Assembly (NCBI RefSeq): GCF_003044185.1
Contig: NZ_PYYB01000001.1
Location: 1,942,978-2,006,977, forward strand
DNA: 64,000 bases
Source of the DNA: Paraconexibacter algicola
Lineage (GTDB): Bacteria; Actinomycetota; Thermoleophilia; Solirubrobacterales; Solirubrobacteraceae
Reading direction: 5' to 3'
In this document: positions 2,646 through 50,564 of the stretch, piece after piece
Layout of the letters: each line of letters opens with the position of its first letter
Position numbering within the stretch: position 1 is the first letter of the stretch
Notes under the pieces: generated by a model
Told to the model about the DNA's origin: nothing
What the model saw: only the letters and a program-made list of their open reading frames with translations
Database searches by the model: none
Position numbers and translations under genes: made by a program

Positions 2646-2806
2646 TTCGGCGTGGGCCGGGGTGGCCGCGACAGCGTCCGGGTCGTCCGTGACGCTCGAA
2701 CCGTCTGTTGCGCGCGGGCGCAGGTTCGCGTCGGGCGGCACGCGATCCAGCACTGCTTCGGTGACAGCGGGCGGCTCCCGCGCGCGCCCGGGTGATCGTC
2801 CTGCGC

Positions 2807-3709
2807 ATGGTCACCTTCCCTCTCCACATCTGGGAGCTCGTGCTGGCCCAGTCCGGGGTCGTCACCGCCGCCCAGCTGCGCGCCGGCGGCGTCGCGCTCG
2901 CCGACGTCCGCCGTGCCCGCCGCGCCGGGCTGCTGCGTCCGCTGCACGGAGGGACCGGCGTGTACGCCACCTTCCCCGAGGGCCTCGCGCCGCCCGACGC
3001 GGCGCTGCGCGCCGCGGTCCTCGCCTGCGGCCCGGACGTCGTGCTCTCCCACCAGACCGCGGCCGCACGCTGGCAGCTCGTGGCCCACGGACCCCCGGGG
3101 CTCATCGAGCTCGCCTCGCGCCGGGAGCTGACGCCGCCCGAGGGCATCTGGATCCACCGATCGCGGCTACGCGCGGCCGAGGTCGTGCCGCTCGACGGCT
3201 TCGCGATCACGACGGTCGAGCGGACGCTGCTCGACATCGCGATCAGGTTCGCGCCCGCCGCGCTGGACCGGGCGCTGCGCGAGGCCGAGTTCCACCACGG
3301 CACGCGGCCGGAGGATCTCGCCGCCGTCCTGCGCCGTGGTCACCGGGGCAGCGCGAGGCTCCGGGCGGCGATCGAGCGGCACGTCCCCGGATGGGGGGAG
3401 ATGCGCAGCCGGCTCGAGCGGCGGTTCCGCAGCCTGCTGGTCCGCCACGGGATCCCGCTCCCACGGCGCAACGTGACCCTCGGACCGTGGATCGTCGACT
3501 GCCTCTGGCCGGAGCTCGGCGTCGTCGTCGAGCTCGACGGGCGTCAGCACGCGCGCCCCGGGCAGGCGGCGGTCGACGCCCGGCGGGACCTGTGGCTGCG
3601 CGCCAACGGCTACGTCGTCCTGCGGTACACGTGGCAGCAGGTGACCGAGGACTCGGACGCGGTCGTCGCCGATCTCCTCGCGGCGCTCGGCGCCCGGCGT
3701 TCTGGGTGA
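2807..3709 (+). CDS. DUF559 / AbiEi-like winged-helix protein with Vsr-like nuclease-fold C-terminus
   Basis: The protein has 300 residues. The N-terminal third (LVLAQSGVVTAAQLRAGG...RRARRAGLL) resembles the winged-helix region of AbiEi-type antitoxin proteins. The C-terminal third carries the DUF559 pattern: VELDGRQHA, then D..RD, then GYVVLRYTWQQV, related to very-short-patch-repair endonuclease folds. Such proteins are numerous in actinobacteria and their role is unproven. ATG 2807 is preferred over GTG 2792 because homologue-like sequence begins near it. The last three bases of the gene (TGA 3707-3709) are part of the 42-bp element copy 3, so the repeat overlaps the coding end (GRRSG). 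The gene is a singleton between repeat copies. Confidence 0.8.
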   Translation: MVTFPLHIWELVLAQSGVVTAAQLRAGGVALADVRRARRAGLLRPLHGGTGVYATFPEGLAPPDAALRAAVLACGPDVVLSHQTAAARWQLVAHGPPGLIELASRRELTPPEGIWIHRSRLRAAEVVPLDGFAITTVERTLLDIAIRFAPAALDRALREAEFHHGTRPEDLAAVLRRGHRGSARLRAAIERHVPGWGEMRSRLERRFRSLLVRHGIPLPRRNVTLGPWIVDCLWPELGVVVELDGRQHARPGQAAVDARRDLWLRANGYVVLRYTWQQVTEDSDAVVADLLAALGARRSG

Positions 3710-3743
3710 TCCGAGACCCACATCTGGCCCTGCGACCACCCAG
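3702..3743. repeat. 42-bp inverted-repeat element, copy 3, overlapping the DUF559 stop codon
   Basis: CTGGGTGA (3702-3709) and CCACCCAG (3736-3743) form the arms with one mismatch. The length is again 42 bp, the interior contains ACATCTGG, and the flanks are GGCGTT and TTCGCGCG. The TGA of the left arm is the stop codon of the DUF559 gene. Confidence 0.7.
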
Positions 3744-3791
3744 TTCGCGCGTTGCGGGAGGCGCGCCCGTTCACTCGGGGGCGCGTGGCCT

Positions 3792-14298: not shown

Positions 14299-15726
14299 AT
14301 GACGTTCAAGAACACGCGCGCCACGCTCGGTGCGCTCGGGTCGACCGCGGCGATCGCCGCCGCCATGGCGGCGCCGGCACAGGCCGCCACCACCACCTAT
14401 CCCGCCGGCGGGAGCAGCTTCACCAGTGGCCTCGAGGGCTGGCAGGACACGAGCACCTCGTGCGTCCTGCTCGTGCTGCCGTCGCTGCTGTGCGACGTGG
14501 ACAACCTCCACGCCGCCGGCGTCGGCAACCCGGCGGGCTCGCTGCAGGTCCGCTACACGACGCTGCTCGGGCTCCTCGGGGTCGCGACGGGCACGAGCGT
14601 CGTGACGTCGCCGTCGTTCACGGTCGCCGAGACCGGCGGCTCCGGCGTCCTGCAGCTCGATCGCCGCGCCGACATCCAGGCGCTGCTGGACCTCGGCGGC
14701 ACCGCCGGCTACCGGGTCGTCCTCGTCAACCAGTCCAACGGCGCCCGCACGGTGCTGCTGGAGGAGGCGCTCGACAACGCCGACAGCGCGTTCGTCAAGC
14801 GCACCGCGGCGGTGCCGACCGGGCTGCTGCAGCCGGGCACGAGCTACCGCCTGGAGATCACGACGCGCCTGACCTCGCAGCTGCTGCAGATCCTCGGCGG
14901 CAGCGTCAGCGCCTACTTCGACAACGTCGGCCTCGCGGTCACCGACGGTCCCGCCGGCCCGACGGGTCCGAGCGGCCCGACCGGTCCGAGCGGCCCGACC
15001 GGGCCCACCGGTCCGAGCGGTCCCACCGGTCCGAGCGGCCCGACGGGTCCGAGCGGCCCGACCGGTCCGAGCGGCCCCACGGGCCCGAGCGGTCCGACCG
15101 GCCCGACGGGTCCGGACGGCCCCACCGGTCCGACGGGTCCGAGCGGCCCGACGGGTGCGACCGGCCCGCAGGGCCCGACGGGTGAGACCGGGGCCCCCGG
15201 CCCCGCCGGCCCCGCCGGGGCGAACGGCACGAACGGCACCAACGGCGCCAACGGGGCGGCCGGGCCGGCCGGTCCCGCGGGCCCCGCCGGCCCGCAGGGT
15301 CCGGCCGGTGCGACGGGCGCGACCGGCGCCTCGGTCGACGGCGCCTCGCTGCCGACGTCCAAGCAGCTCCTGCGCATCGACTCCACGAACCTCGCCGTTC
15401 CGCGGTCGAAGGCCAAGGGCTCGAAGATCGTGAAGGTCCGGATCTACTGCCGGCCGTTCGCGACCCGCACCTGCTCGGGCACCGTGAAGATCCGCTCGAC
15501 GAACAAGCTGCGGTTCGGCCGCTCCGGCAACGAGCGCGTGACGTTCGGGACCAGCGAGTTCCAGCTCAACCGCCGCCAGGTCGGGTTCGTGAAGGTCCCG
15601 CTCGGCGCCGACCGCGTCGCGCTGGCCCGCAAGCGCCGCACGACCGAGGTGATGGTCACCGTCGCGGTGATCGACACCAGCGGCAACCGGCAGACGTTCC
15701 GCCGCACCGTGCGCCTGCGCGGCTAG
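14299..15726 (+). CDS. Secreted collagen-like triple-helix protein
   Basis: The 475-residue product has a signal peptide ending PAQA at about residue 29. A globular N-terminal domain (30-215) follows. An uninterrupted Gly-X-Y tract of about 43 triplets runs from residue 217 to 345, first nearly pure GPT/GPS, then [10 protein letters not shown] basic C-terminal beta domain (about 360-475) has two cysteines ([10 protein letters not shown]). Bacterial collagen-like proteins form trimeric rods on cell surfaces or secreted filaments; trimerisation here is inferred. GPT-rich triplets without hydroxyproline are typical of bacterial forms. ATG 14299 has AAGGGGG 3-9 nt upstream. No sortase motif or C-terminal TM is visible, so anchoring is unclear. 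Confidence 0.9.
14947..15333 (+). repeat. In-gene 9-18 bp tandem repeats encoding Gly-X-Y
   Basis: Tandem units such as GGTCCGAGCGGCCCGACC encode (GPSGPT)n. Near-identical units make this tract a likely site of copy-number change by slippage or recombination. Confidence 0.85.
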
Positions 15727-44351: not shown

Positions 44352-45421
44352 CCCGCCGGCGCGTCCTCACGGTCCTGCTGCTCGGCGGGATCCTGCTCGG
44401 GGCGCTGCTGGTCGCCGCGCTGGTGCGCGAGTCGAACGTCGGCGGGGAGCCCAACGGGCCGGTGCCGCTGCGCGAGCTCGCCGCACGCGATGGGCGCGAC
44501 GTCGGCACCGCGGTCCCCGGCCCGGCGCTGAAGAACTACGCCGGCTACCGCGAGGAGCTCGCGCGCGAGTTCTCGACGCTGACGCCCGAGAACGCGATGA
44601 AGTGGGACGCGATCGAGCCGGAGCGCGGGACGCTGAACTGGACCGACGCCGACGCCGCGGTCGACTTCGCGCGGCGGCACGACATGGCGGTCCGCGGGCA
44701 CACGCTGATCTGGCACAACCAGATCCCGCGGTGGCTGACGGACGGCGGCTTCTCCCGCGAGCAGCTCGACGGCATCGTCCGCGAGCACGTGCGCCGGACC
44801 GTCGGCCGGTACCGGGGACGCGTGTTCGAGTGGGACGTCCTCAACGAGCTGACCGCCGACGACGGCTCCGGCTACCGCAGGTCCCTCTGGTCCGACACGC
44901 TCGGCCCCGACTTCCCCGCCCGGGTGCTGCGCTGGGCGCGCGAGGCGGACCCGGACGCGAAGCTCTACTGGAACGAGATCGCCGCGGACGGCATCAGCGC
45001 CAAGAGCGACCGCTTCTACGCGTTCGCGAAGGCGCTCAAGGCGGCGGGCGCGCCCCTGGACGGCGTCGGGTTCCAGGCGCACTTCAACCTCGACGGCGTT
45101 CCGAAGGGCTTCGAGGAGAACCTGCGTCGCTTCTCCGACCTCGGCCTCGACGTGCGCGTGACCGAGCTGGACGTGGCGCTTCAGCTGCCCGCCGACGACA
45201 CCGCCCGGGCCCGCCAGGCGGACATCTACGCGCAGGTCGTGCGCGCCTGCCGGCGCGTCGACCGCTGCAAGGGCATCACGGTGTGGGGCTTCACCGACCG
45301 GTTCTCGTGGATCCCGGAGACGCAGCCGGGCTTCGGCGACGCGACGCTGCTGGACCGCGAGCTGGAGCCCAAGCCCGCCTACCGGGCGTTCGCCGCCGCG
45401 CTGCAGGCGCCGACCCCCTGA
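44348..45421 (+). CDS. Membrane-anchored GH10 glycoside hydrolase (xylanase family), probable CTG start
   Basis: This GH10 barrel hydrolyses beta-1,4-xylan-type chains by a retaining mechanism. The acid/base is E167 (WDVLNE) and the nucleophile E273 (VTELD); HTLIWHNQIPRWL and YWNEIAADG are family motifs. A single N-terminal TM (VLTVLLLGGILLGALLVAALV) anchors it outside the cytoplasm. No ATG, GTG or TTG lies in frame between the preceding gene's stop and the TM. CTG 44348 overlaps that stop as CTGA and is the simplest start; otherwise a start some 46 codons upstream within the transferase gene (GTG near 44209) is needed. Placed in a glycan export locus, it may trim or cut the polymer. Confidence 0.88.
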   Translation: MTRRRVLTVLLLGGILLGALLVAALVRESNVGGEPNGPVPLRELAARDGRDVGTAVPGPALKNYAGYREELAREFSTLTPENAMKWDAIEPERGTLNWTDADAAVDFARRHDMAVRGHTLIWHNQIPRWLTDGGFSREQLDGIVREHVRRTVGRYRGRVFEWDVLNELTADDGSGYRRSLWSDTLGPDFPARVLRWAREADPDAKLYWNEIAADGISAKSDRFYAFAKALKAAGAPLDGVGFQAHFNLDGVPKGFEENLRRFSDLGLDVRVTELDVALQLPADDTARARQADIYAQVVRACRRVDRCKGITVWGFTDRFSWIPETQPGFGDATLLDRELEPKPAYRAFAAALQAPTP

Positions 45422-45454: not shown

Positions 45455-45581
45455 GCGGTGAACGGACATTTCCAGCCCCCGGAGGGGCGGAAGATGGACA
45501 GCGCGACGGGGCGATCGCCCGGAGGCGTCGCAGGCTGTCCATCTCCTGTCCCCATGAGGGCTGGAAATGTCCGTTCACCGC
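45455..45581. repeat. Long nested hairpin element, copy A (127 bp)
   Basis: A perfect 23-bp outer stem pairs 45455-45477 with 45559-45581; its core is GTGAACGGACATTTCCAGCC. An inner stem pairs AGATGGACAGC (45492-45502) with GCTGTCCATCT (45534-45544). The loop itself folds: GCGAC (45503-45507) with GTCGC (45527-45531) around palindrome GGGCGATCGCCC. It sits exactly between two convergent genes, 34 nt after the GH10 stop and 32 nt after the GT4 stop, so it could terminate both. Copy B is at 49315-49445. Confidence 0.85.
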
Positions 45582-45612: not shown

Positions 45613-46647
45613 TCAGCGGGCGGCGGCGGTCCGCTCGATCGCCGCGCGGAGCGCGACCGCGGTGTGCTCGTGGTCGAAGGCGCCGACGCGCGCGGCGCCG
45701 CGGCGGACGAGCTCGTCGGACAGCTCGCGGTTCTCGAGGGCCAGGGCGACGAGCTCGGCGACGACGGCCAGGTCGCGGTCCTCGACGAGCAGCGCCGCGT
45801 CGCCGGCCACGGACGGGATGCCGCCGACCGGCCGGGCGACCACCGGGGCGCCGAAGTGGAACGCCTCGAGCAGCGGGATGCAGAAGCCCTCGTGCTCGGA
45901 GAGGCAGACGAACGCCCCGGCGGACGCGTACCGCGTGGCGAGCTCGTCCGCCGTGAGCGACGACTCGATCGTCACCGCGCCGGGCGCGAGCTGGTCCGCG
46001 AGACCGGCGAGCGCGGCACGGTAGTTCGGGTTCAGCGGCTCCCCGACGAGGCGCAGCGTCGCGTCCGGCAGCCGGTGGCGGCGCAGCAGCGCGACCAGGC
46101 GGATCAGCTCGTCCTGCCGCTTGTGCGGGGCGAGCCGCCCGACGAACAGCAGCTCGTGCGGTCGGCGCCCCGCGTCCGGCGCCGGGGTGCCGAGCGTCCC
46201 GGGGTCGAACAGGATCGGCACGACGACGTCGCTGCCGAGCTCGGCGGCGTTGTACGGCGACACGCCCGCGACGACGTCGGCGCGGGCCGCGTACTCCGGC
46301 AGCTGCGCGCGGCCGAGCTGGCAGTGGATCGCCACGGTCGGCTCGTAGTCCCAGAACCAGCGGGCCGGGGTGACGTTGTGGGAGAGCAGGAGCGTGCGGT
46401 TGGGCAGGTCCAGCACGCGGCGCAGCCGCGGGGCGTACGCGGAGTAGTGCACGAGCAGCAGGGCGTCCGGCGTCGGCGTGCCGAGCGCGCGCAGCGGCCG
46501 CACCTCGGAGGCGATCCGCGGGTCGATGTGCCCGGCGAAGATGTCCCCGGACCACCCCCACGAGCGGAACAGCGTGCGGAACTCGCGCGCCTGCGTCGTG
46601 ACCGCGTCGTGCGGTCCGGCGCCGCTCAGGACCTGGTGGACGATCAC
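45613..46647 (-). CDS. GT4 family glycosyltransferase
   Basis: The 344-residue GT-B enzyme starts at GTG 46647 (VIVHQVLSGAGPHDAVT). The C-terminal nucleotide-sugar domain shows ELLFVGRLAPHKRQDELIRL and FVCLSEHEGFCIPLLEAFHFGAPVVARPVGGIPSVAGDAALLV, the EX7E motif of GT4 enzymes. It likely adds a hexose to the lipid-linked repeat unit. The start overlaps the previous gene's stop (GTGA, 46644-46647), making it the last gene of the minus-strand exporter operon. Confidence 0.92.
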   Translation of the reverse strand: MIVHQVLSGAGPHDAVTTQAREFRTLFRSWGWSGDIFAGHIDPRIASEVRPLRALGTPTPDALLLVHYSAYAPRLRRVLDLPNRTLLLSHNVTPARWFWDYEPTVAIHCQLGRAQLPEYAARADVVAGVSPYNAAELGSDVVVPILFDPGTLGTPAPDAGRRPHELLFVGRLAPHKRQDELIRLVALLRRHRLPDATLRLVGEPLNPNYRAALAGLADQLAPGAVTIESSLTADELATRYASAGAFVCLSEHEGFCIPLLEAFHFGAPVVARPVGGIPSVAGDAALLVEDRDLAVVAELVALALENRELSDELVRRGAARVGAFDHEHTAVALRAAIERTAAAR

Positions 46648-47770: not shown

Positions 47771-48543
47771 ACGATCACCGCCAGCTCGCGCTGCATGCCG
47801 CGGAAGATCGCCCGGCCGATCAGCAGCGCGAGCGTCGCCGCGACGAGCACGTACAGGAGCACCGCGGCGCTCGGGACGGTCCCGTCGTAGAGCACGTCGC
47901 GGACCGCCTCGATGAACGGCGCGACCGGGTTCACCCACGCCATCGCGAACTTCGCGGCCGCCTGGTCGGTGATGTCCTCGGGCTCGAAGAAGATCGGGGA
48001 GAGGAAGAACCACGGCAGCAGGACCGCGCTGAGGATCGGCGCGACGTCCCGGAAGTACGTGTGCAGGACGCTGACCGCGAGCGCGAGGCCGAGGACGAAC
48101 GCGTACAGCGCGACGAGGATCACGGGCAGCAGCAGGATCGCGGGGTCCAGCGTGCCGCGGACGGCGATCGTCACGACCCCGACGAGCGCCAGGACGATCG
48201 TGAACGTCACCATCTGCACGGTGACGACGGCCCCGGGGATCGTCTCGCGCGGGAACGGCGCCTTGCGGATCAGCGCGCCCTGGTCCAGCAGGGCGGGCGC
48301 GCTGGAGAGCAGGGCCTGGCTGAAGAACATCCACACGACGAGGCCGACCATGAGGAACAGCGGGTAGTCGTCGTGCTCGGCCAGCGTGAACACGACCCCG
48401 AACATCAGGTAGTAGGCGCCCATCAGCACGAGCGGGTTCACGAAGTACCAGGCGATGCCGAGCACGCTGCCCTGATACTTCTGACGCAGCTCGCGACGGA
48501 CGAGCTGCTCGAACAGATAGCGGTAGCGCAGGAGCTCCCCCAT
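47767..48543 (-). CDS. Polysaccharide export ABC permease (Wzm-like, ABC-2 type)
   Basis: The 258-residue permease has six TM segments. The N-terminus MGELLRYRYLFEQLVRRELRQKYQGSVLGIAWYFVNPLVLMGAYYLMFGVVF is characteristic of ABC2 polysaccharide exporters, with FPRETIPGAVV and ILSAVLLPWFFLSPIFF later. With the downstream ATPase it would move undecaprenyl-linked polymer across the membrane. Its ATG (48543) shares CATG 48541-48544 with the divergent rpiA start. Confidence 0.94.
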   Translation of the reverse strand: MGELLRYRYLFEQLVRRELRQKYQGSVLGIAWYFVNPLVLMGAYYLMFGVVFTLAEHDDYPLFLMVGLVVWMFFSQALLSSAPALLDQGALIRKAPFPRETIPGAVVTVQMVTFTIVLALVGVVTIAVRGTLDPAILLLPVILVALYAFVLGLALAVSVLHTYFRDVAPILSAVLLPWFFLSPIFFEPEDITDQAAAKFAMAWVNPVAPFIEAVRDVLYDGTVPSAAVLLYVLVAATLALLIGRAIFRGMQRELAVIV

Positions 48544-49264
48544 GGACCATGAGTGTCCCAACTCCGACCCCGACACGACCGCCCGCCGCGCCGCGGCGCA
48601 GGAGGTCGCGCAGCTCGTCGAGCCCGGCATGGCCCTGGGACTGGGGTCCGGGCGGGCCGTCTGGGCCGCTGTGGACGCGATCGCGACCCGTCTCGGGGAC
48701 GCGACCGGCACGCTCACGGCGGTCTGCGCGTCGGCGGCGACGGAGCGGGCCGCCGAGGCCGCGGGCATCGTCGCGCTGCCGCTGATGGCGGGCAGCGACC
48801 TCGCGCTGGCGATCGACGGCACCGACGAGCTGACCACCGGCCTGGACCTGCTGAAGGGCGGTGGCGGCGCGCTGCTGCGCGAGCGGCTCGTGCTGAGTGC
48901 CGCCCGGCGGTTCGTCGTGGTCGCCGAGCAGCCGAAGCTCGTCTCGCGGCTGGGGGAGACCCGCCGGCTGCCGGTCGAGATCGCCCGCTTCGGCGCGCAG
49001 GCGACGCAGCGGCGCCTGGCGCTGCTCGTCGGCGACCCGCAGCTGCGCCTCGAGGACGACGGCAACCCGTTCGTCACGGAGGAGGGACACCTGCTGCTGG
49101 ACGCGGAGATCCCCGGGGACGCCTCGCTGCCGCTGCTGCACACGCAGCTGCTCACCACGCCGGGCGTCATGGACCACGGCCTGTTCCTCGGGGTCGCCGA
49201 CGAGGCGCTCGTCGGCCGCCCGGACGGCACCGTGGCGACGTTCACCCGCGATCCCCTGGGCTGA
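48542..49264 (+). CDS. rpiA: Ribose-5-phosphate isomerase A
   Basis: The 240-residue isomerase interconverts ribose-5-P and ribulose-5-P. It has GMALGLGSGRAVWAAVDAI, DGTDELTTGLDLLKGGGGALLRERL and VVAEQPKLVSRLG, with the catalytic acidic residues in the DGTDE block and Lys in LKGGG. The normal GLGTGST motif is GLGSGRA, a mild change. ATG 48542 overlaps the divergent permease start, so each gene's SD region would be inside the other gene. A pentose isomerase here might support nucleotide-sugar supply, or simply be a housekeeping insertion. Confidence 0.88.
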   Translation: MDHECPNSDPDTTARRAAAQEVAQLVEPGMALGLGSGRAVWAAVDAIATRLGDATGTLTAVCASAATERAAEAAGIVALPLMAGSDLALAIDGTDELTTGLDLLKGGGGALLRERLVLSAARRFVVVAEQPKLVSRLGETRRLPVEIARFGAQATQRRLALLVGDPQLRLEDDGNPFVTEEGHLLLDAEIPGDASLPLLHTQLLTTPGVMDHGLFLGVADEALVGRPDGTVATFTRDPLG

Positions 49265-49314: not shown

Positions 49315-49445
49315 GTGAACGGACATTTCCAGCCCTCAGGGGGGCGGAAGATGGACAGCCTCGGGCCGTCGTTGCCCGTGATCGCCCTCGAGGCCGCCGA
49401 GCTGTCCATCTCCCGCCCCTCCCGGGGCTGGAAATGTCCGTTCAC
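49315..49445. repeat. Long nested hairpin element, copy B (131 bp)
   Basis: A 21-bp perfect outer stem pairs 49315-49335 with 49425-49445; its first 20 bases are the same as in copy A (GTGAACGGACATTTCCAGCC). The inner stem AGATGGACAGC (49349-49359) with GCTGTCCATCT (49401-49411) is also unchanged. Between stems, GGGGCGG (49341-49347) faces CCGCCCC (49413-49419); this segment differs from copy A yet still pairs. The loop has a different sequence. It lies between rpiA and the kinase gene on the same strand. Confidence 0.85.
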
Positions 49446-49553: not shown

Positions 49554-50564
49554 GTGACCGTCGTGATCGACCTGCCCGCCGCGATCACCCGCCGTGCCAC
49601 GTCGGGCCCGCAGGACGGGCTGGTCGTCGGGGTCGACGCCGGGGGCACCAAGACGCTCGCCGCCGCGCTCGACCTCGCCACCGGCGCGGTCACGACCGGC
49701 CGGTCCGGACCGGCGAACCCCGACGCGATCGGCCTCGACGACGCCGTCGCCGCGATCACGGAGGCGGTCGGGGAGGCCACCGGGGACCGGGAGGACGTCC
49801 GCGCGGTGCTCGTCGCGGGTGCGGGCACCGACGCCGCCACGCTCGGGGAGGCGGTCGTCCGGGCGCTGCCGTCGGCCGTCTTCGTCAACGACGTCGTCGC
49901 CGCCTGGGCGGCCGTCGCGGCCGGCGAGCCCGCCATCGCGGTGATCTCCGGGACCGGCTCCAACGCCCTGGGGGTCGACGGCGAGCACCGCGCCCGTCGC
50001 GCCGGTGGCTGGGGGCACGTCTTCGGGGACGAGGGCTCCGGGCACTGGCTCGGCCGCGAGGCGGTCGGCGCCGCGATCCGCGCCTACGACGGGCGGGACG
50101 CCCCGACGCTCCTCGGAACGCTGCTGTGCGAGGAGACGGGCGCCGCGTCCGCCGCGGACGCGGTGATCGGGCTCTACGCCGACGGGGCCGGCAAGACCCG
50201 CGTCGCCGCGCTCGCCCCGATCGTCTCGCGGGCGGCCGCGCAGGGCGACGCCGCGGCGACCGCGCTGCTCGCCCGTGGCGGGGAGGCGCTCGCCGACCAC
50301 GTCGTCGCGATCGCCGACGCGCTGGAGCTCGGGGCCGACGCCGTCCTGCCGATCGGGCTGACCGGCTCGACCTGGAAGGCCGGTGGCGCGCTCACCGCCC
50401 GGTTCGCCGAGGTCGTCGCCCAGCGGCTCCCGGGCGCCGAGATCCGCCGGGTCCAGACGCCGCCCGTGGTCGGGTCGCTCGCGCTGGCGCTCCACGCCTG
50501 CGAGCGGTCCGACGCGATCGAGGCCCTCCTGCCCGACGCGGCCGCCGCGCTCGCCGACGCCTGA
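49554..50564 (+). CDS. BadF/BadG-type ATPase, probable N-acetylglucosamine kinase
   Basis: The 336-residue ASKHA-fold kinase has phosphate-1 motif VVGVDAGGTKTLAA, phosphate-2 region VISGTGSNALGVDG and GGWGHVFGDEGSGHWLGREAV, which is the hallmark of N-acetylglucosamine kinases of the NAGK/BadF family. Sugar phosphorylation for cell-wall or polymer recycling is likely. The start is GTG 49554, with no canonical SD. It follows long hairpin copy B by 108 nt. Confidence 0.85.
   Translation: MTVVIDLPAAITRRATSGPQDGLVVGVDAGGTKTLAAALDLATGAVTTGRSGPANPDAIGLDDAVAAITEAVGEATGDREDVRAVLVAGAGTDAATLGEAVVRALPSAVFVNDVVAAWAAVAAGEPAIAVISGTGSNALGVDGEHRARRAGGWGHVFGDEGSGHWLGREAVGAAIRAYDGRDAPTLLGTLLCEETGAASAADAVIGLYADGAGKTRVAALAPIVSRAAAQGDAAATALLARGGEALADHVVAIADALELGADAVLPIGLTGSTWKAGGALTARFAEVVAQRLPGAEIRRVQTPPVVGSLALALHACERSDAIEALLPDAAAALADA

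Follow-up and report, generated by a model that had tools for sequence, protein, structure and literature searches.

The hairpin element at positions 49315-49445 of the window (copy B), present as the initial annotation had described it, is probably a doublet of species-specific, REP-like miniature mobile palindromes resembling REPINs or BIMEs. We regard the X/Y units of which it is built as a previously undescribed REP-like family belonging to a known kind of element; no published description of such a unit family was found in the literature searched. The window is the whole stretch of 64,000 nucleotides that was analysed (C1:1942978-2006977 of the 4.74-Mb Paraconexibacter algicola genome, which is in 6 contigs and 95.6% complete). 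It carries two copies of the element, copy A extending over 45458-45578, and the relevant features are as follows.

44423..45421, + strand, glycosyl hydrolase family 10 gene, ending before copy A (PF00331, 6.6e-98)
45458..45501, - strand, 5' unit of copy A (unit scan, L046 302-345; alignment row A5)
45502..45534, no strand, palindromic spacer of copy A, 33 nt (sequence and fold)
45535..45578, + strand, 3' unit of copy A (unit scan, L046 379-422; alignment row A3)
45613..46647, - strand, glycosyltransferase gene, ending convergently after copy A (PF00534, 5.8e-26)
48542..49264, + strand, rpiA (ribose-5-phosphate isomerase A), upstream of copy B (PF06026, 3.2e-45)
49315..49358, - strand, 5' unit of copy B, reading X-core-Y on the - strand (unit scan, L047 311-354; alignment row B5)
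49359..49401, no strand, spacer of copy B, 43 nt, partly self-complementary (sequence and fold)
49402..49445, + strand, 3' unit of copy B, X-core-Y (unit scan, L047 398-441; alignment row B3)
49554..50564, + strand, BadF/BadG/BcrA/BcrD-type ATPase gene, downstream of copy B (PF01869, 5.7e-33)

The predicted fold of copy B has an energy of -128.6 kcal/mol, and none of 200 dinucleotide shuffles was as stable (z -9.19). The identity of the outer-arm core (GTGAACGGACATTTCCAGCCC, 21 nt) and of the 11-bp inner stem (AGATGGACAGC/GCTGTCCATCT) between copies A and B, as well as the GGGGCGG facing CCGCCCC in copy B, were all borne out by our comparison. The compensatory change that the initial annotation had read from this pair was not: copy A has GGGGCGG on its 5' arm too, and only the 3' arm facing it differs (CCTGTCCCC in copy A, CCCGCCCC in copy B), so that the change is one-sided, giving a G-U pair in A and a G-C pair in B.

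The collection of all genomic copies, which had been proposed together with that claim, combined DNA, pattern and covariance searches in the species' own genome with inspection of the stretches found, and it yielded a family of 11 loci. Six are inverted doublets (copies A and B, C2:139712-139832, C1:613460-613609, C3:257144-257366 and C1:1923337-1923504), two are single X-Y units (C1:1316078 and C1:1114365) and three are short X-X' palindromes (C1:416498, C3:53278 and C1:2232240). The 44-nt X-Y unit consists of CTGTCCATCTYC, a 16-nt G/C palindromic core and GGAAATGTCCGTTCAC, with a fixed internal spacing: the start of Y lies 28 nt from the start of X in 14/14 units, and the distance from TGTCC to TGTCC in the unit alignment is constant at 32 nt. 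The 14 units align without gaps, and 28 of the 45 columns are invariant. The variable columns are mainly those around the core (9-11, 13, 19-23 and 26), with single exceptions in the ends; the X and Y ends are thus nearly invariant, while the core varies in sequence at constant length. In a doublet two units are inverted with Y outside (6/6), and the spacer ranges from 33 to 135 nt. All 14 units are distinct from one another, and the family is therefore not the exact duplication of a single recent origin which had been named as a refuting outcome.

The initial annotation had also suggested selection for structure. Were pairing under selection, an arm would be expected to match its own partner more closely than the arms of other doublets. 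Inside the six doublets 228 arm-to-arm matches were observed against a mean of 233.0 after permutation; 671 of the 720 permutations of the arms scored at least as high as the observed arrangement and 96 as low or lower, and among all 10395 pairings of the 12 halves the corresponding numbers were 9609 and 1400. The doublet halves thus tend towards unlikeness, though non-significantly, and unlike halves are reported for many REP families in the excerpts of Di Nocera et al. (2013, PMC3733652) on which we draw. Within the unit hairpin 91.6% of the cells pair, two-sided change was seen in 0/11 pairs, and the covariation score was equalled or exceeded in 241 of 500 shuffles. Covariation is at chance level for the doublet halves and for the unit hairpin alike, the outcome that the initial annotation had named as refuting, and the argument for selection from covariation fails, there being neither excess matching within doublets nor any two-sided change. 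Compensatory evolution of the long stem is rejected and that of the unit hairpin has no support; with six doublets the test is a small one, in which selected pairing is unsupported and its absence not proved. The lesson is that the likeness of both arms is not in itself proof of selection for pairing.

The range of the family appears to be a single species. In the order's 231 other genomes no copy of the family was found. When up to 2 mismatches were allowed, a search of 232 genomes of the order with the Y 18-mer gave 13 matches in the own genome and one each in 9 others, and none of the 7 of these 9 that were inspected at the match has a palindromic partner. The covariance model R1, run against 146 genomes of the family, recovers the own genome and two weak single matches (G117 and G142), with no doublet in the 300 bases at the middle of either locus. 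The exact 17-mer has 31 single matches in the GTDB species collection, about the chance level and none with an X partner, and two single matches in viral contigs, likewise without a partner. The pattern GTCCATCT...AGATGGAC gave single matches in G001, G083 and G174; these are taken as chance, since the reversed control also matches 3 genomes. The locus in G001, a congener, is one perfect palindrome with arms of about 25 bp which contains GTCCATCT/AGATGGAC (L159, G001:C1:354505-354538), and it was judged a chance likeness. Rfam gave nothing at the gathering score, and its microRNA-type matches were set aside as below threshold and reflecting mere hairpin likeness. In the search for an empty site of copy B, rpiA had no match in six of 7 congeners and one match of 40% identity in the seventh, and the plasmid matches to the copy B region are confined to its rpiA part. 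As for an enzyme, the Y1/RAYT transposase domain (PF01797) has 0 matches here, with 5 positives among the 14 genomes used as controls, no transposase gene adjoins any copy among the flanking genes scanned, and a Y-ended element with kilobase spacing did not turn up when the own genome was searched by DNA, pattern and model.

The most direct evidence for movement is the single unit at C1:1114365, which sits within an open 527-aa gene (PMT_2-like). Homologues of this gene were matched in 110 of the 146 family genomes, the own genome included, and in many of them tblastn yields two pieces, interrupted at residues ~156 and ~181 of the query. Alignment to 29 homologues (loci L207-L235, a subset of the many matches) places 24 extra residues of the query precisely at the unit, the junction reading LEARRPR-(24 extra residues)-AGLPM in the query and LEAxRPR-RG-LPV/M in the homologues. 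The X-Y unit is present in 0 of these 29. The junction is short in 24 of them, and the other five (L207, L208, L211, L212 and L220) have other, unrelated extra residues, which means that the loop tolerates inserts. In L211 and L220 the unrelated insertions at this same loop measure roughly 25 residues; they might be those species' own repeats. The insert comprises 72 nt, namely 18 nt, a 45-nt unit (GGTGAACGG to GGACAG) and 9 nt; being longer than the 44-nt unit and defined at one locus, it fixes the element ends only approximately. At this one defined insertion there is no clear target-site duplication; the flanks carry an imperfect direct repeat of 8-9 nt (CCCGGGCG/CCCGGGGCG) in G/C-rich DNA. 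The suggestion that the element moves as a foldback unit is supported by the dispersed doublets of the same orientation, the occurrence in 1 of 232 genomes and the clean in-frame insertion, and mobility has better support than selection for structure. Insertion into the loops of older hairpins was also considered, as the 12 nt flanking the elements pair better with their own partners than with swapped ones (-190 vs -157 kcal/mol, p 0.004, 10 loci), yet the signal is weaker when longer flanks are taken (p about 0.04), and the six doublets by themselves do not show it (p 0.21 to 0.50). At C1:1114365, where the insertion is defined, the outer CCCCGG/CCGGGG arrived with the insert, and this reading is therefore not claimed.

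The placement of the family is far from even. Eight of the 11 loci lie between convergent genes (copy A, C2:139712, C3:257144, C1:1316078, C1:1923337, C1:416498, C3:53278 and C1:2232240), one is tandem (copy B), one divergent (C1:613460, between AhpC and endonuclease/exonuclease/phosphatase genes) and one intragenic (C1:1114365). Genes were taken from a codon-based caller trained on the window, with Pfam support for most of the flanking ones; one gene of the convergent pair is without a Pfam match at C3:257144 and at C3:53278, at C1:1923337 one match is below the cut-off, and the unit at C1:1316078 overlaps its neighbour's predicted stop by 2 bases. The position of copy B between genes of the same strand (rpiA and the BadF-type ATPase), from which it had been argued that termination alone does not explain the placement, is correct, but copy B is the sole such locus among the 11. 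In a census of 864 kb of the genome, 38 of the 314 gaps measuring at least 50 bp are convergent, and convergent gaps hold 6706 of the 48768 bases (13.7%) in gaps of 50-800 bp; the probability of 8 or more convergent loci among 11 is 1.4e-5 at this share and 1.2e-3 at a share of 25%. In the same 864 kb, other convergent gaps of 50-600 bp reach a stem score of 18 or more in 0/32 cases and of 14 or more in 3/32, while of the four convergent gaps that bear an element three score 23-33 and the fourth, with an X-X' palindrome, 11. Such stems being seldom found in other convergent gaps, the element is not the usual terminator of this genome. Elsewhere in the genome two intergenic gaps, C1:528636 (708 bp) and C1:536827 (592 bp), have in common an 84-nt repeat of 92% identity, with a third, weaker copy in the gap at C3:237448.

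This distribution could also be produced by dispersed bidirectional terminators selected at convergent gene ends, their likeness being due to a shared origin or to a termination factor that binds them. A comparable case is that of the TRIT terminators of M. tuberculosis (RNIE; Gardner, 2011), which are also mentioned in PMC3526491: like our elements, these are reportedly hairpins of conserved sequence dispersed over the gene ends of a high-G+C genome. Together with the 8/11 convergent loci, the very stable and symmetric hairpins are in keeping with such a function. As the origin of the family, however, it is unlikely: a scan of the two window copies, 45458-45578 and 49315-49445, found a T-run terminator-like site at neither, the in-frame insertion and the divergent placement do not fit TRIT-like terminators, and the conserved flanks are longer than a hairpin terminator requires. 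The rarity of long stems in other convergent gaps (0/32 at a score of 18 or more) and the failure to find compensatory change weigh in the same direction.

The inverted arms with Y outside in 6/6 doublets, the restriction to one species and the in-frame insertion would also suit MITEs that descend from a DDE-type insertion sequence, with the Y arms as terminal repeats and a parent that was lost or never assembled. We consider this origin quite improbable, given that DNA, pattern and model searches of the genome revealed no autonomous relative with the same ends and that no clear target-site duplication is seen beyond the imperfect CCCGGGCG/CCCGGGGCG in G/C-rich sequence; the single units, the X-X' forms and the internal palindrome are also more REP-like than TIR-like. 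A third possibility, that the TGTCC motifs are paired operators or nucleoid-protein sites, bound by a protein with a role in organising the DNA of convergent gene ends, would account for the nearly invariant X and Y ends around a variable core and for the constant 32-nt spacing of TGTCC. It is very improbable, as there is no candidate protein, the sites are missing from relatives, unlike a housekeeping site, and one copy lies within a gene.

Under the REP-like reading, which we prefer, a hairpin of the unit or of the doublet would form in single-stranded DNA, where a transposase or a similar enzyme acting in trans may recognise it together with the conserved ends and copy or move the element. 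The end motifs would then be kept by enzyme recognition and not by compensatory pairing. Harmful insertions would be lost, leaving survivors mainly at convergent gene ends, where they are presumably close to harmless and where the stable hairpin may in addition form the 3' end of the transcripts arriving from either side. The X-X' palindromes and the inverted core loops (TCCG vs CGGA between units) look as though they might have arisen by hairpin template switching. The one divergent copy counts against the REP-like reading, as do the negative Y1/RAYT search, the low copy number, the missing tags and compensatory changes, the demonstration of insertion at a single locus with no clear target-site duplication, and the variability of the insertion site, a loop that also differs in 5 of the 29 homologues.

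The REP-like reading is made more likely by a second, unrelated palindromic repeat specific to the same species. This 45-nt repeat, GTTCTGGGTGATC-25 nt-CACCCAG, has 18 forward and 13 reverse pattern matches in the own genome and 0 in 231 other genomes of the order. The repeats are often clustered and many lie at gene ends; they occur in the window at 2511-2574, 2594-2657 and 3692-3755 and elsewhere on C1 at 217484, 429027, 780832, 1387591, 1438459, 1495038, 2217134, 2227887 and 2669713. A DUF559 (PF04480) gene at 2792-3709 of the window has GTTCTGGGTGATC units on both sides; its candidacy as the mobiliser of this second family was dropped, such a gene being found among 0 of 10 neighbour genes at six other clusters. 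With at least two unrelated, species-specific families in this genome, we tentatively entertain, as possible though doubtful, the wider proposal that both owe their spread to a mobiliser not yet recognised, or else to template switching at hairpins during replication, and that they persist at convergent genes as 3'-end structures serving both strands. The window also contains 9-nt periodic repeats of another kind at 14847-15305, with 34 overlapping copies in the predicted gene 14299-15726, which implies a tripeptide-repeat stretch.

Among known systems, REPINs (Bertels and Rainey, 2011, PMC3116915) are, as far as the excerpts of that paper go, likewise inverted pairs of short palindromes with a variable spacer and a long hairpin, accompanied by single units as apparent remnants and mostly extragenic; inverted palindromic units folding into one hairpin are found at 6 of our 11 loci. 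The same excerpts report 430 doublets in P. fluorescens SBW25 and describe compensatory changes as common. The X/Y family, in contrast, comprises 11 loci and not hundreds, has no detected compensatory changes, and was found with neither a RAYT/Y1 gene nor a GTAG tag. In the unit alignment GTAG is absent beside the stem, the flanks being CTGTC(C) and TCCGTTCAC; TGTC is present in 13/14 units, followed by C and then AT, which is one base off the AT of the stem, and there is no exact CGTC. According to the excerpts of PMC3733652, the spacers of CGTC/GTAG-tagged REP doublets are mostly 20-100 bp, their halves often differ, some lie inside genes while they are found predominantly between convergent and unidirectional genes, and CGTC families are without a dedicated transposase. 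Our elements share with them, on this description, the doublet architecture, the unlike halves, the gene-end placement with intragenic units (here 8/11 convergent and one intragenic), the lack of a dedicated transposase seen in the CGTC families, in so far as no Y1 gene was found here, a 4-nt loop and, as in some families, a situation within small G/C palindromes; they differ in a longer stem of 11 pairs with mismatches. The phyla listed in the excerpts of that paper exclude Actinobacteria, a word with 0 occurrences in its main text. The Rickettsia palindromic elements (RPE), as outlined in PMC3733652, also place a palindromic unit in-frame within protein-coding genes; in the X/Y family 1 of 11 loci is intragenic, and the likeness drawn here is one of placement. 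The X/Y family thus works like REP/REPIN elements and is REP-like; with no RAYT gene or compensatory change found, no GTAG or exact CGTC and few copies, it is not classed as a RAYT-mobilised REPIN.

REP-like repeats shape the 3' ends and the stability of bacterial genomes, and the RAYT is their best-known mobiliser. From this point of view, a small family of 11 loci in a single species, for which one in-frame insertion is defined and a RAYT was not found, provides a convenient test case for RAYT-free movement, and also for the question of why palindromes settle between convergent genes.
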